Shown: positions 8,963-59,066 of the stretch, piece after piece
How positions within the stretch are numbered: position 1 is the first letter of the stretch
Layout: every line of letters begins with the position of its first letter
Notes under the pieces: generated by a model
Database searches by the model: none
Seen by the model: only the letters and a program-made list of their open reading frames with translations
What the model was told of the DNA's origin: nothing
Translations under genes and position numbers: made by a program
Assembly (NCBI GenBank): GCA_009392515.1
Contig: VFGE01000038.1
Span: forward strand, 1-62,238
DNA: 62,238 bases
From: SAR202 cluster bacterium
GTDB lineage: Bacteria > Chloroflexota > Dehalococcoidia > Lucifugimonadales > UBA6952
Reading direction: 5' to 3'

Positions 8963-9742
8963 ATGGAAGTCAAAGTTTTTTTTAGACAGGGTTGATTTAC
9001 TTGCGGTAGGACGAAAGAGTATCTTTCGCAAAACAATATTGATTACATTCCTATGGATGTGGCAAAAGATCCACAAGCTTTAAAAGAATTAGACGATTTG
9101 GGGTTAAAGGTTATACCTGTTACAACTATTACTTTAGCTCCTGGTACTAAATCTTTTGGAGATAAAGTAATAATAGGATTTGATCGCGCTTCTTTATCTG
9201 AAGCTTTAAATTTAGGAGAAGTAAGTATAACTGATTCTGATGCTGAGTGGATGTTAGGCAAATTCATGAAAGTACTATCTGCGGCTAGAAGAGCAACATT
9301 GCAAATTCCAGACGATTCTATTGATTGGGTTTCTCCTGAACGTGATAGAACACTTAGACAATTCACCTTTCACCTTTTTGATAGACCTTATATGATGATT
9401 TCTGCATATGAACAAGGTGAATATAAAGCAGAGGACCGTCAAAGGTATATAACTGATGCTTTAAAGACTCAAGATGTACGATCTATAGTTGAATTTGGGG
9501 AGTCGGTAATTAATAGAATTGAGAAATTTTTCGAAAATATTCAATTAGAAGTCCTTAAAACTCCAGTAAAAACTTACATGGGAACTATGCCTTTAAATCA
9601 GTTAATGGATTTGGGGTTAGGGCACTCTGTACATCACTTGAAACAATTATATTTTTACATGAGCAAACTCGATATCGTACCTGACAACCCACTTACCGAA
9701 GAAGACTTTGATGGAATTTCAGTTCCTTCCGAGTTATTCTAA
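8963..9742 (+). CDS. Predicted selenoprotein: glutaredoxin-like domain (UxxC) fused to DinB-fold domain
   Basis: Read from ATG 8963 (GGAG 6 nt upstream) this frame has one TGA at 8993-8995 and then stays open to 9742, giving 259 residues. The N-terminus reads MEVKVFFRQG-U-FTCGRTKEYL, so the TGA sits at the first position of the CxxC redox motif (U11-F-T-C14). The cis-Pro (Pro52 in VIPVTTI) and the closing KVIIGFDRASL segment are typical of glutaredoxin. Residues about 95-250 look like a DinB four-helix domain, with His137 and GHSVHHLKQL (His221, 224, 225) as metal-ligand candidates. TGA is a normal stop elsewhere (rhomboid at 5965, btuC at 36063), so a general recode is unlikely. A shorter start at 9053 would lack the active site. 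Sec rather than sequencing error is inferred, supported by the hairpin that follows. Confidence 0.72.
8996..9031 (+). promoter_or_regulatory. Candidate bacterial SECIS element
   Basis: Sixteen nucleotides after the in-frame TGA lies a perfect 6-bp hairpin, CGAAAG-AGTAT-CTTTCG (9012-9028), with TTG/CAA (9001-9003/9029-9031) able to extend it across an asymmetric bulge. The apical loop AGUAU has G at its second position, as in the published bacterial SECIS consensus, and begins 22 nt after the TGA, inside the usual window. The element lies within the coding sequence, as bacterial SECIS elements do. Confidence 0.65.
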
Positions 9743-10684
9743 GTTCAAATTTTTCTTTATCGATTGTGCTAACAATGGATATTTACAGATAAATCCTGTT
9801 TGAAATAGTTTAGAAGGGTTTATTTTTCGGCTATATAGAACCTCTGCAGACACTCCTCCTAAAATTATTTTTATGGCTAATTTGTATAAGTTACCTAAAA
9901 AAGGAATCCAGGTAGTATTCGGTCTATGTAAATGTTTAGAAAGAGTACTCACAAATTCTTTTTGTCTTACAGGATTTTGAGTGGTTACATTAAATGTACC
10001 AGTGTGTTTATTTTCTATGAAGAAAGCAATGCAATTGTATATATCTTCAATATCCATCCAAGACCACCACTGGTTACCGGTTCCAAATTTTCCTAAAACA
10101 CCAAATCGAGAAGGCAAGAGCAATCTTTTTAACCCGCCACCATCCTTTCCTAAAACAATACCAGCTCTAAGGATTACGTTTCGAATATTATTAGGCAAAT
10201 TTTCAGTAATTGAATTTTCTGACTCTAATACAAGATCAGCTAACCATTCATTACTAATTTCAGAATTTTCATCTAGCTCCTTTTCTCCTGAATCAGGATA
10301 GCAACCAATGCCACTGATCATACCTATAAATGTATTGATTTTATGATCAGACAGAGATAGAGAGTTAATTAAATTGCGAGTTCCTAAAACTCTACTCTCG
10401 TATATTTTATTTTTTTTGGACTTAGTCCATCGTCCAATTATCGGGGGCCCGACCAAAGGTTCTCCAGCTAAGTGAATAAGAATTTCTGAGCTTTCTAAAC
10501 CTTTCAATTCAAATTCGGGATCTTTTGGGTTCCAGGGAATGTAATCAACCTTAGGTATTGGGTTTTTAATATGATTTGGATTTCTTGTAAGAATTACAAC
10601 TTGATGATTATTTTCGACGAATTTAGTAGTTAAAAAATTTCCTATGAATCCTGTTCCGCCTGTTAATGCAATATGCATATTCAT
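9734..10684 (-). CDS. TIGR01777/SDR39U1-family NAD(P)-dependent epimerase-like protein
   Basis: 316-residue extended short-chain dehydrogenase. The Rossmann motif GGTGFIG is at residues 9-15 (MNMHIALTGGTGFIG). A family-typical LIHLAGEPL segment, an SR(V/E)xGT-like ESRVLGTRN segment and a C-terminal DUF1731-like end (KINPSKLFQTGF) follow. Members are often annotated YfcH or cell-division-inhibitor-like, but the chemical role is unsettled. It overlaps the Grx-DinB gene by 9 nt at the convergent ends and is divergent from the B12-binding regulator. Two starts (10684, 10678) are possible; AGGGGAT fits the first. Confidence 0.87.
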   Translation of the reverse strand: MNMHIALTGGTGFIGNFLTTKFVENNHQVVILTRNPNHIKNPIPKVDYIPWNPKDPEFELKGLESSEILIHLAGEPLVGPPIIGRWTKSKKNKIYESRVLGTRNLINSLSLSDHKINTFIGMISGIGCYPDSGEKELDENSEISNEWLADLVLESENSITENLPNNIRNVILRAGIVLGKDGGGLKRLLLPSRFGVLGKFGTGNQWWSWMDIEDIYNCIAFFIENKHTGTFNVTTQNPVRQKEFVSTLSKHLHRPNTTWIPFLGNLYKLAIKIILGGVSAEVLYSRKINPSKLFQTGFICKYPLLAQSIKKNLNLE

Positions 10685-10712
10685 CCCCTAATCTTTACAG
10701 AAAAAGTGATTT

Positions 10713-10766
10713 AATGTAGATTATAAATCACTAATGTTTAATTATATGTTATAATAATTCTACATT
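10713..10766. promoter_or_regulatory. Symmetric divergent promoters with an inverted operator-like repeat
   Basis: For the plus-strand regulator gene, TG-T-TATAAT (10747-10755) is an extended -10 and is followed by TCTACATT (10759-10766) at the expected start of transcription. For the minus-strand SDR gene, TATAAT (10725 down to 10720) is followed directly by CTACATT. AATGTAGA (10713-10720) and TCTACATT (10759-10766) are exact inverted copies. The same half-site therefore sits just after each -10, which suits a shared repressor such as the adjacent B12-binding regulator. Binding is inferred. Confidence 0.5.
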
Positions 10767-10791
10767 GTATTGGATAATTTAATCAAGCTGA

Positions 10792-11697
10792 ATGTCTGAG
10801 GTGCATGTGACATCCCTATCAAATAGTGTCAAAAATAATGAATATAATTTGTCTCGCTATATTACCCTAGCTGTTGAAGGTGAGATTGATCAGGTAAGCG
10901 AACTTGTTGATTCTTATATTAATGATGGCAAAAGTGTTAAAGACGTTTTGTTGAAGATGTTTATGCCTTCATTAGTTAATATTGGTGATTTATGGAAGAA
11001 AGGGTTGTTAAATATAGCAGAGGAGCATTTAGCTGTAACTGTTACCCTCTCTCAAATTGAGAGATTAACACAATCGCTAGTTCCAAATGGAGAAATTATT
11101 GGAACTGCTGCTATATGCACGCCAGTTGGGGAGAAACATTTTATAGGTCCTAAGGTTGTTTCTGAATTAATGAGACTTTCAGGTTGGAATGTGCACTTTC
11201 TGGGTACAGAAATGCCCCCAGAGGATCTCATACAATTTCTTGGAGAAAAAGAAATTGATTTATTAGTATTATCAATAACTTTGGAAGAAAACCTACCTGC
11301 TGTTTTAGAAATAGTCAAAGCGGTAAAATCAATGGATAAATCTGTAGTAACTATGCTTGGTGGCTCCGGAGTTGATAATATAGATGAAAACTTAATAAGC
11401 GATGTGGATATAATATCATCTGATGTTTCAAGCGCTATAATCGAAGCTTCACGCTTGGTTTCATCAACTACTTTAAACGGTAATTTAGAAGACTATCTTT
11501 CTTTTATTGGTGAGAAAGTCAAAAGAACGAGAATATTAAAGGGCTGGAATCAGCAAAAACTTGCTGACGAATCTGGTCTCGACAGAACTTATATAAGTTC
11601 TGTCGAAAATGGGAAACAAAATCTAACATTAGGTGTGCTTTTGCGAATTGGCAATGCATTTGGTATAGATATACAAACGTTAATAAATCGTGAATAA
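10792..11697 (+). CDS. CarH-like cobalamin-binding regulator with C-terminal XRE helix-turn-helix
   Basis: 301-residue putative B12-sensing transcription regulator. Residues about 18-100 are a helical B12 cap domain containing W68-x9-E78-H79, the arrangement found in CarH photoreceptors. Residues about 101-225 are a Rossmann B12-binding domain with E114-x-H116-x-x-G119, where His116 is the candidate lower cobalt ligand, followed by LVLSITLEENLPAV. Residues about 242-298 form a Cro/C1-type helix-turn-helix (QQKLADESGLDRTYISSVENG). Known CarH/LitR proteins place a MerR-type domain first, so both the position and the fold of the DNA-binding part differ. It is divergent from the SDR gene and 54 nt upstream of an ABC transporter operon. 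Light sensing is inferred; a non-light B12 sensor is the alternative. Confidence 0.85.
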   Translation: MSEVHVTSLSNSVKNNEYNLSRYITLAVEGEIDQVSELVDSYINDGKSVKDVLLKMFMPSLVNIGDLWKKGLLNIAEEHLAVTVTLSQIERLTQSLVPNGEIIGTAAICTPVGEKHFIGPKVVSELMRLSGWNVHFLGTEMPPEDLIQFLGEKEIDLLVLSITLEENLPAVLEIVKAVKSMDKSVVTMLGGSGVDNIDENLISDVDIISSDVSSAIIEASRLVSSTTLNGNLEDYLSFIGEKVKRTRILKGWNQQKLADESGLDRTYISSVENGKQNLTLGVLLRIGNAFGIDIQTLINRE

Positions 11698-11750: not shown

Positions 11751-12440
11751 GTGTCTAATAATGAAATAATTGTTGCTAACAATGTCTACAAAACTTATCA
11801 ATCCAAAGATGTAAAAGTCGAGGCGCTTAAAGGTGTTTCGTTATCCGTTAATCAAGGTGAAATCGTTACCATTATGGGGCCTAGTGGTTGTGGCAAAACT
11901 ACATTGTTAAATTGTCTTTCTGGACTTGATGAAATAGATTCAGGAGAAATTATCATAAGAGACTCAGATATAACTCAGATGTCGGATAACCAGCTGACAA
12001 ATTTCAGGGGCAAAAATATGGGGTTTGTATTTCAAGCATATAATTTATTACCAGTGTTAACTGCGCGTGAAAATGTCGAATTACCTTTAGTATTAGCTGG
12101 CACTTCACAGAGTAAGTCCAAAAATATAGCCGAAGATCGCCTTGATTTAGTTGGACTTGCCGATCGATATACTCATTTACCTACTGAATTATCTGGAGGA
12201 GAACAACAAAGAGTTGCAATAGCTAGGGCATTTGCAAACGATCCTGCCATCATATGGGCTGATGAATTGACAGGTAATTTAGATTCTAAGACACAAGATG
12301 AAGTAATAGATTTAATAAGAAAAATGAACAAAGAAAACAATCAGACTTTTATTATTGTTACTCACTCTGATGAGGTTGGTTCTATTGGCCATAGAACTAT
12401 ACGTATGAGAGATGGATTAATTGAAGATGATGGAAAATAG
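11751..12440 (+). CDS. ABC transporter ATP-binding protein, LolD/MacB type
   Basis: 229-residue ATPase of the family that pairs with FtsX-type permeases. It shows Walker A GPSGCGKTT, the Q-loop in FVFQAYNLLPVL, the signature LSGGEQQR, Walker B AIIWADE and a switch His in VTHSDE. After Walker B it reads ADELTGNLD where ADEPTGNLD is usual, a single Pro to Leu change of unknown effect. The start is GTG with GAGGA upstream. The permease follows 10 nt later. Such systems act as mechanotransmission or lipoprotein/toxin extrusion machines rather than classic importers. Confidence 0.93.
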   Translation: MSNNEIIVANNVYKTYQSKDVKVEALKGVSLSVNQGEIVTIMGPSGCGKTTLLNCLSGLDEIDSGEIIIRDSDITQMSDNQLTNFRGKNMGFVFQAYNLLPVLTARENVELPLVLAGTSQSKSKNIAEDRLDLVGLADRYTHLPTELSGGEQQRVAIARAFANDPAIIWADELTGNLDSKTQDEVIDLIRKMNKENNQTFIIVTHSDEVGSIGHRTIRMRDGLIEDDGK

Positions 12441-12450
12441 AGACTTATAA

Positions 12451-15400
12451 ATGGAAGAGTTATTTGGCGTAGATATAGACATATTAGCTGGTGTATCAAC
12501 TAGTATAATGATAGTAGCTGTATTAATAGTTGCTGTGCTGGGATTCAGGAATAAGTTACTAGTAAAAATGGCAATTAGGAATATTCCACGTAGACCAGCT
12601 CAATCAGTAGTTATCATGTTTGGTCTAACTTTAAGTACAGCAATAATTTGTGCGGCTTTAAGTATAGGTGATACCGTTACAACTTCAATTCGGTACGCTG
12701 TTCTTCAAGGGTTGGGTAATTCAGATATATACATAACTTCAACGCAATCATCTGTTTTTGGGGACAATTACCTTGATAAAGAAGATTTCAATACAATCAA
12801 GTCTAAGACAATTCAATACGATGAAATTGATGGTTTTGCCCCATTTATTCGCGAAGATTTTTCTGTATATCTTCCTGCAACAGAAAAAACAAATTCACAA
12901 ACATTAATTCTTGGACTGGATAAAGAATACTTAAGTGGATTTGGGGATATTAATCTACCTGATGGAAACACTTATTCTCTAGCTCAATTAGGTGAAGGAG
13001 AAGTTGTCATATCTGGTGCTCTTTCCTCAAAAATAGATGCTGAAGTTGGTGACATATTAAATATAGTAACACCTACAGGTAAATATCCTTTTGTGATAAC
13101 TGTAGTTGCTGCAAGAGGAAATCTTGCTGCATCTGATCCAAGAGTCCTTATGAACATATCAGAGCTCCAAACAATACTCAATAGACCCGATCAATTTAAT
13201 AATATCGCAATTTCTACGACTGGTACTCAAGACGAGGGTATTCAAAGATCAAAGGAATTGAGTGAAAAATTGTATTTAGCTTTTTCAAATAAAGAGATGG
13301 CTGCTGATATATTTAATATTCTTTCAACAACTGAAGTAACTGACTCTCTGAGCAAATATATTTTGGATAATGAAAATTTACCTCAGAATATAAAAGATGA
13401 TATTGATAGTTTAACTACGGAACTAGATTCAGGCACAATGAGTGATGAATTTATAAAATTAATGGGGGATCAAACAAATCGTGGGGTAGTTTTAGGTGCG
13501 TTAGAAGATGCAAAACTAACTAATGAAATACAGTCTGTTGGGCCATTATTATACACATTTCAAGATTATAATGTAGATCCTATTAAATATAGATTAAATG
13601 AATTAGCTAATACAGTCGGAACATCTATAACTACATTTTTTAGTATTTTTGGAACGTATTCTATAACAGTAGGTTTATTATTAATATTTTTAGTGTTTAT
13701 TTTACTTGCAGCTTCGAGAAGCACAGAGATGGGAATATCCCGGGCTATAGGTATGAAGAGAACTCATCTCACTCAGATGTTTACTTTTGAAGGAACAGCA
13801 TATGCTTTAGCTGCAGCATCTCTTGGTACACTTATCGGGGTTCTAGCTAGTTATTCTTTAGTATCGATTGGATTATCCGCCCTTAGTAGTGAGGATGACG
13901 GATTTGTGATCAAATATTCCTTAAATATAAGAGCATTAGCCTTAGCATTTTCATCTGGAATGTTATTAACATTTATAACTGTTGTGATTTCCTCTTATCG
14001 TGTCAGTAAGCTCAACATTGTAGTAGCTATTAGGAACTTACCTGAACAGTTTGCAAAAGATAAGCAAATATCAACCAAAACCTTATTCTTGAGTTCAATT
14101 AAATGGTTACTAGGACCAATATATCTTGCACTTATTATGCTTCGTGACAGAAGAGTACTTACAATGACTAATGTCATCTTAGGTTTGATTTGGATTGGAT
14201 TAATCTCTTCGGTTGTAGCTCCTGTTTTACAAGATACAACTGTGGCAGCTCAAGCAGTACAAAGTGGAATTTTTTTATGGTTATTGGTTACATTATGGAA
14301 ATTACTCACTATTATATTGAGATTCTTTAAAACCGGTTGGCCACTGTTAATTTTAGGTCCAATTGTACTGTTCACAGTTTTTGGATTAGAAAATGCACCC
14401 GTGTACAAGGATGCTGCATTATTCGGTTCAGGAATTAGCTTAACATTATTAGGTATAGGACTAACCATAAGATGGATGTTAAATTACACATCTTTACTTC
14501 CTAGAGTTATAGACAGGTTATCAGCAAGTATCACAGGTTTAACCTTGGCAATCTTCTGGGGTATGCCTTTCGATACACTGGAGAGTATAACTGGGAAACT
14601 GGAAGATTCTCCACTTACATTTGTATTGCCTGGTCTTTGGTTGGTGGTTTCAGTTATGACAGTTATCATGTACAACGCTGAAATTATAGTCTGGGTAGGC
14701 AACAAAACATTTGGAGTTATCAGTAGTTTTAAAGCAGTATTTAAGATTTCTGTTGCTTATCCTATGGCATCTCGTTTTCGTACTGGTCTAACAGTTACTA
14801 TGTTTGCATTAGTAATTTTTACCTTAGTAATATTCGCTACCTTAAATAACCTTGGAAATGAGATACAAGATAATCCAGAAAGAGTTAGTGGCGGATATGA
14901 GATCAGGGCAAATATTAATAGAGAAACTCCTATTGAAAATGTTTATACCACGATAAACAATTCTGATATAGTTGTGTCTTCAGATTTCGAAGTTATAGCA
15001 AGTCAAACAAACTTTAGAGCGCAAGCTCGCCAAGAAGGTACAGATAATTCTAGATTTAAAAATGCTTCTATAAAAGCTCTTGATAATCCCTATTTGGAAA
15101 CAAATCTATTGCAAATTACTCACTATGATCCAGCCTATGGTACTGATTCTAGAGCAATTTGGAATGCTTTAGCTAATGATTCAACTCTAGCTTTGATACG
15201 TGGCGATGCTTTATCAACAGCGAATCAAGGTGGCCCAGGTGCTCAATCTTCAGACGCTTTTAGATTAGATGGTGTAGAAGCTGCTGAACAAGGAGAAATG
15301 ACTAGTCAATTTATTGAATTACAATTACCTTTGGGCCAAGGTGTTTATGGAGATGTCGTCAAACGAAGAGTTATAGGAGTAGTAGATCCAATAGCTGGTG

Positions 15401-16029
15401 GATTAGATGGATTTGAGGGACAAGGTAGTTCAACTATTTATACCAATACCAAAATAGTGCAAGACATTTCACCAATTGATATCACGCCAAATGTTTATCG
15501 ATTTAAATTAACTGATCCTTCTCAAGATGAGGAAATAGCAAGAAAACTCGAAACTGTTTTCTTAGAAAATTCTATGCAAGCGACAGCAATTGTTACCCAA
15601 CTTGCCGAGCAACGAGAACAGGATGATGCGTTTAATCTTCTATTTCAAGGCTTTCAAGGCTTAGGTCTAATAGTAGGAGTAGCAGCTTTAGGTGTTATAT
15701 CTTTTAGGGCAGTGGTTGAACGACGAAGAGTTATTGGAATGATGAAAGCAATGGGCTATTCACGCAAAATGATACAATATCAATTTCTACTCGAATCAGC
15801 GGTTATAGCGATACTAGGTTCAATCGTAGGAATAGGTTTGGGCACTCTAGTTTCTTGGAATATAGTTCAAGAAATTAGAAAAACCGTAGAAGATTTAACA
15901 TTTGAAATGCCATGGATTAACCTTATTGGAATTACAACAATTACTGTTTTATTTGCCCTTATTGCAACGTGGGTCCCTGCTAGACAAGCTTCAAAAATCT
16001 ATCCTGCCGAAGCTCTAACTTATGAATAG
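12451..16029 (+). CDS. Large FtsX/MacB-type ABC permease
   Basis: 1192-residue integral membrane protein. An N-terminal membrane segment (about 15-32) is followed by a second at the IRNIPRRPAQSVV motif. A MacB-like extracytoplasmic domain (about 75-385) and a first FtsX transmembrane triplet (about 390-530) come next. Residues about 560-745 hold roughly six extra hydrophobic segments. Then comes a second extracytoplasmic domain (about 790-1060) and a second FtsX triplet ending with WVPARQASKIYPAEAL. The double-FtsX layout means one polypeptide can pair with two ATPase copies. The cargo is unknown. Confidence 0.9.
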   Translation: MEELFGVDIDILAGVSTSIMIVAVLIVAVLGFRNKLLVKMAIRNIPRRPAQSVVIMFGLTLSTAIICAALSIGDTVTTSIRYAVLQGLGNSDIYITSTQSSVFGDNYLDKEDFNTIKSKTIQYDEIDGFAPFIREDFSVYLPATEKTNSQTLILGLDKEYLSGFGDINLPDGNTYSLAQLGEGEVVISGALSSKIDAEVGDILNIVTPTGKYPFVITVVAARGNLAASDPRVLMNISELQTILNRPDQFNNIAISTTGTQDEGIQRSKELSEKLYLAFSNKEMAADIFNILSTTEVTDSLSKYILDNENLPQNIKDDIDSLTTELDSGTMSDEFIKLMGDQTNRGVVLGALEDAKLTNEIQSVGPLLYTFQDYNVDPIKYRLNELANTVGTSITTFFSIFGTYSITVGLLLIFLVFILLAASRSTEMGISRAIGMKRTHLTQMFTFEGTAYALAAASLGTLIGVLASYSLVSIGLSALSSEDDGFVIKYSLNIRALALAFSSGMLLTFITVVISSYRVSKLNIVVAIRNLPEQFAKDKQISTKTLFLSSIKWLLGPIYLALIMLRDRRVLTMTNVILGLIWIGLISSVVAPVLQDTTVAAQAVQSGIFLWLLVTLWKLLTIILRFFKTGWPLLILGPIVLFTVFGLENAPVYKDAALFGSGISLTLLGIGLTIRWMLNYTSLLPRVIDRLSASITGLTLAIFWGMPFDTLESITGKLEDSPLTFVLPGLWLVVSVMTVIMYNAEIIVWVGNKTFGVISSFKAVFKISVAYPMASRFRTGLTVTMFALVIFTLVIFATLNNLGNEIQDNPERVSGGYEIRANINRETPIENVYTTINNSDIVVSSDFEVIASQTNFRAQARQEGTDNSRFKNASIKALDNPYLETNLLQITHYDPAYGTDSRAIWNALANDSTLALIRGDALSTANQGGPGAQSSDAFRLDGVEAAEQGEMTSQFIELQLPLGQGVYGDVVKRRVIGVVDPIAGGLDGFEGQGSSTIYTNTKIVQDISPIDITPNVYRFKLTDPSQDEEIARKLETVFLENSMQATAIVTQLAEQREQDDAFNLLFQGFQGLGLIVGVAALGVISFRAVVERRRVIGMMKAMGYSRKMIQYQFLLESAVIAILGSIVGIGLGTLVSWNIVQEIRKTVEDLTFEMPWINLIGITTITVLFALIATWVPARQASKIYPAEALTYE

Positions 16030-58989: not shown

Positions 58990-59066
58990 TCATTCGTTGG
59001 TAAAAAAATATAAGGAGCTGTGGCTTATACCAAGGGTCGCTCGTTCGTCTAAGGCTACATTGGAAA

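Follow-up and report, generated by a model that had tools for sequence, protein, structure and literature searches.

The described systems closest to the regulator considered here are CarH and LitR, MerR-type AdoCbl photoreceptor repressors, which share with it the B12-binding fold, the W-x9-EH motif and a His residue, as well as the layout of one regulator beside a divergent target, with a promoter-overlapping operator whose sites stand in helical phase. In addition, the SDR, CMAS (UfaM-like), FolE and FAD oxidoreductase genes of LitR regions, as given in the available part of PMC9758184, have counterparts near the regulators of its relatives. CarH and LitR carry an N-terminal MerR domain, whereas our regulator has a C-terminal XRE domain instead; the CarH operator is described, in the portion of PMC9304148 at hand, as three or four tandem 11-bp repeats (nnnnTnnACAn), whereas here we find two 18-bp palindromes, 31–32 bp apart. 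Light-type B12 domains fused to other outputs are also known from the SignatureFinder fusions (PMC11796333) and the photocobilins (PMC10979010). HTH fusions at either end of the B12 domain are mentioned in general terms in PMC11796333; the accessible sections of these two papers describe no XRE/controller-type member, operator or regulon, and the open-licence literature searched yielded no publication on a B12-XRE regulator or on the operator of one.

A second likeness concerns the DNA-binding half. The R-M controller proteins C.Esp1396I, C.AhdI and C.BclI likewise have an XRE HTH with the stretch LDRTYIS and a palindrome with outer TG and central TATA, and in both systems two dimers are expected on two sites. 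Specifically, C.Esp1396I contacts the outer TG and a GAC/GTC box and pinches the central TATA, with T36 reading C, R46 reading G, R35 making a base contact and Y37 located at the pinch (PMC3758141, PMC4041747, available parts); the OR site oligo of the controller protein is TGTGTGATTATAGTCAACA (PMC3758141, same part). The controller proteins are small, stand-alone, found in R-M systems and bind adjacent sites, whereas the regulator is a 301-aa fusion to a B12 domain, with its sites separated by the spacing given above.

The regulator and its divergent neighbour

In the window (the whole 62,238-nt stretch of SAR202 cluster bacterium DNA analysed here), a 107-bp gap at 10685–10791 parts two divergent genes. 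The first, on the minus strand (9734–10684), is the likely target gene and encodes a 316-aa SDR39U1-type oxidoreductase (TIGR01777, 234.9 bits against an NCBIfam cut-off of 207.35); the second, on the plus strand (10792–11697), encodes the 301-aa B12-XRE regulator. The regulator's other neighbour is an ABC transporter, whose ATPase and FtsX/MacB-type permease (11751–16029) start 53 nt past the regulator on the same strand, and co-transcription is possible.

By Pfam, the regulator consists of B12-binding_2, B12-binding and a C-terminal HTH_3 domain; no MerR domain was detected, Pfam and NCBIfam giving just B12-binding and HTH_3/XRE, and the score against the CarH equivalog is 58.5 bits (cut-off 400). 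The earlier note had reasoned from CarH, and such a plain CarH model has to be set aside, as the regulator is without a MerR domain and its operator does not consist of CarH's 11-bp direct repeats. The motif residues are W68-x9-E78-H79 and H116, with LDRTYIS at 263–269. Across 61 regulator loci (the window, its sister genome and 59 others at 25–40% identity) W-x9-EH is present in 59 and E78, H79 and H116 in all 61; W-x9-EH plus an axial-type His are the residues named for light-responsive domains in the available part of PMC11796333. An AlphaFold2 model of the regulator (41 family sequences) has a pLDDT of 89.4, and its Foldseek matches comprise photocobilins, the CtMerR B12 domain, AerR and CarH; the B12-binding fold is CarH-like, with a TM (target) of 0.75–0.82 to some chains of 5c8d/8c31. 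For the HTH, the best PDB matches include the R-M controller proteins C.AhdI, C.BclI and C.Esp1396I, some of which carry LDRTYIS, together with 3vk0, an entry named just 'transcriptional regulator'. The genome of the window encodes an adenosyltransferase, one other B12-binding match (a 146-aa ORF) and, as MerR matches, short ORFs only (127 and 171 aa).

An order-wide search returned some match in 217 of 250 genomes; in many cases the match was confined to the B12 domain. Within a named collection, a Dehalococcoidia MAG from ALOHA comes closest, the others belonging to SAR202, Ca. Lucifugimonas marina, Fraserbacteria, Fimbriimonadales, Uabimicrobium and Deltaproteobacteria. Ca. Lucifugimonas marina JH1073 (CP046147; L217, L219), a cultured, light-inhibited SAR202, has two B12-XRE copies, each with a 28-bp double site.

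The inverted repeat and the family motif

The earlier note had singled out two copies of TCTACATT in the intergenic region, read as one site shared by mirror-image promoters, and had proposed looking for arrays of it at other promoters of the genome, including near 59054, before rsmH. The copies are indeed exact inverted ones (AATGTAGA at 10713–10720, that is TCTACATT on the minus strand, and TCTACATT at 10759–10766 on the plus strand), and each lies behind a -10-like TATAAT on its own strand: at 10720–10725 on the minus strand for the SDR promoter, with one base common to TCTACATT, and at 10750–10755 on the plus strand for the regulator promoter (TGTTATAAT, an extended -10 form), with 3 nt in between. 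Since the -10 register differs by 4 nt, the two promoter halves are not exact mirror images. At neither TATAAT did a consensus scan give a sigma-70 promoter with a fitting -35.

Alone, an 8-nt exact inverted repeat is at chance level: when the 107-bp intergenic region was dinucleotide-shuffled, 595 of 2000 sequences contained one, and 100 of 20000 contained one with both arms flush behind TATAAT. TCTACATT is not enriched in the window (5 seen, 3.9 expected) or in the genome (114 against 113 for the reversed pattern), which leaves the idea of arrays elsewhere unsupported, and the site before rsmH scores at most 2.8 with the operator PWM. Similarly, there was no genome-wide excess of TATAN1-5TCTACA (57 against 66 reversed) or of TGTNGNNTATANTCNACA with up to 2 mismatches (78 against 66), and TCTACATTN0-12AATGTAGA, sought as a genome-wide signal, was absent. 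Two further inverted repeats were rejected as operators. That at 10705–10732 (AGTGATTTA/TAAATCACT, 9+9 perfect), which overlaps site A described below, occurs in 63 of 2000 shuffles, has its pairing broken by T10707C in the sister genome and is out of register with the family motif; that at 10733–10745/10754–10766 (11/13) occurs in 147 of 2000 shuffles.

The idea of a family motif came from inspecting upstream regions and was then tested blind by EM on 44 homologue upstreams, leaving out the window, the sister genome, the 12 loci of clade f38 and 3 near-duplicates. From these distant-homologue promoters EM returned an 18-bp palindrome, TGTnGAnTATAnTCnACA (TGT.GA.TATA.TC.ACA), with a log-likelihood of 239.7 (80 restarts), compared to 31–36 in three 2-mer-shuffled sets (40 restarts); EM put the proportion of sequences carrying a site at 0.98, the highest value that the script allows. 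In the 41 of 44 loci whose best site scored at least 10, a PWM scan found 17 pairs of sites 30–33 bp apart, in 16 loci and seven families, compared to a mean of 0.16 and a maximum of 3 in 300 shuffles; this test reuses the PWM trained on the same loci, and spacing played no part in the training. Other spacings were also seen, namely 28 bp in one genus (5 loci), 43 bp and 54 bp. Of the 20 named-collection loci, 18 of which lie outside the training set, five (L172, L177, L179, L180, L221) have a pair at 31–33 bp, and five of the 20 give no score or one below 6 with the operator PWM. The motif is absent from several homologues outside Dehalococcoidia. In the upstreams of L202, L205, L208 and L213 (Deltaproteobacterial and related), TTTATGCAT / TTTACACC-like repeats replace the TATA palindrome, and a different operator is possible there.

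A strict form, TATA-N1-2-TCTACA, lies upstream of 10 of 47 distant homologues and of 3 of 329 control upstreams; it is one of five hand-chosen patterns picked after inspecting upstreams, and the independent evidence is confined to EM, the spacing test and the loci outside training. The exact operator consensus was found in none of 247 genomes of the order, a search that is uninformative because the control also gave 0.

A PWM trained without the window and the sister genome places site A at 10715–10732 (plus strand TGTAGATTATAAATCACT, minus strand AGTGATTTATAATCTACA; score 9.3), over the SDR-side -10, and site B at 10747–10764 (TGTTATAATAATTCTACA; score 7.2), over the regulator-side -10, with 32 bp from one to the other. 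Each is weak alone: by eye, they agree with the consensus at 11/14 and 9/14 specified bases, they rank 9 and 21 in the window with the 18-bp PWM (11 and 12 with a 20-bp one), and an 18-mer at 10602 in the SDR coding region outscores both (11.3). This operator-like 18-mer (10602–10619), 113 bp before site A, is closer still to the consensus in the sister genome. As a pair, A and B are the sole one in the 62-kb window at 30–33 bp with both scores at least 5 (0.19 expected), and they precede the regulator start codon by 77 and 45 bp, the distances in L047 and L049 being 76 and 45. Moreover, a 64-bp block spanning both operators (10708–10771) is identical in the sister genome G001, of the same genus. 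The whole intergenic region differs at 4 of 107 bp (10687, 10690, 10707 and 10772), the regulator gene at 123 of 903 positions (103 of 301 third codon positions) and the SDR gene at 171 of 948. An orthologous region keeping the -10 elements and losing TCTACATT, an outcome the earlier note had raised, is not what is seen there, both arms being identical.

The minus-strand and plus-strand TCTACATT arms are therefore not one shared site; each is the better-conserved half of an 18-bp operator of its own, A and B respectively, and, A lying over the SDR -10 and B over the regulator -10, each promoter has a separate operator. What the sequence itself shows is the motif with its pairing and spacing, its position and conservation, and the domain make-up. 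The homologue motif, the pair spacing, the unique pair in the window and the conserved block indicate that A and B are very probably operators of the adjacent B12-binding regulator, the assignment originally made for the repeat.

Aligned on LDRTYIS, the window's regulator has R265, T266 and Y267, and Q276 in place of R46 (60/61). The family operator consensus keeps TGT, TATA and TC and does not keep the G of GTC, so that the family differs from the controller proteins in both respects; the loss of R46 would predict the missing G. In f38 position 266 is A in 12/12 loci, compared to T or S in the other 49, and the SDR-SRPBCC promoters of this clade have a TTGTGYTATARTACAA-type site instead (10/12 loci in the scan; the misses are L074, whose contig begins in that operon, and L081, where the sole listed match is distant). 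We do not claim residue 266 as a specificity code, since all f38 loci belong to a single clade and the TTGTGYTATARTACAA-type site is not seen in Deltaproteobacterial homologues that share this A.

Predicted targets

In 23 of 61 loci, ORFs of cluster 1 (SDR39U1 or SRPBCC) are found at most 5 genes from the regulator. The f38 loci have an SDR-SRPBCC fusion gene ahead of the regulator within the same operon, and a variant site stands before that fusion gene. Outside the window, the best conserved operator groups of its own genome are C6 (scores 19.9 and 19.1) and C53 (16.6, 14.7 and 8.8). The operon behind the latter (G000:C53) encodes a zinc-ribbon-like protein, a 44-aa ORF and an SRPBCC-like protein, names that we assigned from sequence, Pfam PF03364 being below its cut-off. 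ORFs matching the C53 SRPBCC protein occur in 23 of 61 regulator loci, and 12 of 61 have matches, in part weak, to the zinc ribbon, both being raw counts. Thus, an operator found by sequence leads to gene families that neighbour the regulator in its relatives. The earlier proposal of the SDR39U1 gene as a target gains from this and appears likely, because, in relatives, SDR39U1 is found next to the regulator as a fusion with its partner SRPBCC, which in the window's genome stands behind the C53 operators.

A third operator-like site (L167:3000-3017, G000:C53), identical in G001, lies 41 bp past the C53 pair, possibly forming a triple array. The strongest double operator of the genome (L165:2607-2665, G000:C6; L166:3144-3204, G001:C7) has spacings of 41/43 bp, is kept in both genomes and parts a small membrane protein-MFS-DEAD helicase operon from two small divergent ORFs. 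At L265:5338-9581 (G000:C31), two CMAS genes are followed by ORFs resembling, by eye, FAD amine oxidase and DUF1365; this CMAS pair resembles the one adjoining the regulator in f38, and the operon is without an operator in front (no upstream site of at least 8).

Proposed mode of action and competing readings

We propose, with a probability of roughly 0.7, that the intergenic region is a tandem double operator of the adjacent B12-XRE regulator, which blocks both promoters and is released by light. Two dimers of C-terminal XRE domains would occupy the two TGTnGAnTATAnTCnACA-type pseudo-palindromes, whose spacing would correspond to three helical turns, and the CarH-like B12 domains would probably hold them together as a dimer of dimers. 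With site A covering the SDR39U1 -10 and site B the regulator's own, occupancy would block both promoters. By analogy with CarH, adenosylcobalamin would keep the regulator in its DNA-binding form in darkness; green light would break that form, freeing SDR39U1 and, elsewhere in the genome, the SRPBCC/zinc-ribbon operon. Regulator binding, oligomeric state, repression and light as the signal are what we infer here.

The case for light as the signal draws on the B12 motif, the fold and the neighbours of the regulator in relatives, which include GTP cyclohydrolase I (FolE), cyclopropane synthase-like CMAS pairs, FAD amine oxidase, DUF1365 and SDR. The Pseudomonas LitR light set comprises PhrB, UfaM, FolE and CryB, and the LitR region holds an SDR and an FAD oxidoreductase (PMC9758184, available part). 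With operator and regulator unchanged, the signal could be corrinoid availability, redox or oxygen, acting on lipid or oxidative-stress genes. Same-fold B12 domains do serve in methyltransferases, and the photolyase gene, often part of light regulons, lacks a convincing upstream operator in the window's genome; we nevertheless regard such a signal as unlikely, in view of the near-invariant W-x9-EH and axial-type His, named for light-responsive domains (PMC11796333, same part), and of the resemblance of FolE, CMAS, FAD amine oxidase and SDR to the light-inducible LitR set.

An activator–repressor switch of the R-M controller type, in which one filled site activates and both repress, appears less probable again. 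It would be compatible with the likeness of HTH and operator to controller proteins, which bind two sites cooperatively, and with the different strengths of A and B, but a dimer bound over either -10 would block RNA polymerase, and the 31–32 bp spacing is unlike the adjacent OL/OR sites of C.Esp1396I. Fortuitous palindromes in an AT-rich divergent promoter region would suit the shuffle frequencies of the 8-nt repeat and of the 9+9 palindrome and the unenriched TCTACATT, yet are very improbable, as a motif and a 30–33 bp spacing derived without the window recur in it at the right place and 64 bp are unchanged while 103 of the 301 third codon positions of the regulator gene have changed.

Returning to the light-released double operator, we give an even chance to the broader reading that B12-XRE proteins are a second, MerR-independent lineage of B12 photoreceptor repressors, with a new double-palindrome operator and a LitR-like light-stress regulon. 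This lineage would join a CarH-like B12 domain to a controller-protein XRE domain that reads its operator in three-turn steps, would be widespread in marine Dehalococcoidia/SAR202 and present beyond, and would govern SDR39U1-SRPBCC, zinc ribbon, CMAS and FolE. A lone inverted repeat thereby becomes a predicted regulon that includes the poorly understood SDR39U1 and SRPBCC families. If true, the green-light B12 switch would have been given a different DNA-binding chassis, together with an operator code of its own, offering a CarH alternative for optogenetics whose operators are readable from sequence. Cultured SAR202 strains are light-inhibited, which PMC10444878, in its available part, calls unexplained, and the words 'photoreceptor', 'cobalamin' and 'B12' are absent from its main text; the B12-XRE regulator of Ca. 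Lucifugimonas marina would be a candidate light sensor, and the family would give abundant ocean bacteria with unexplained light sensitivity a light-response mechanism open to testing.
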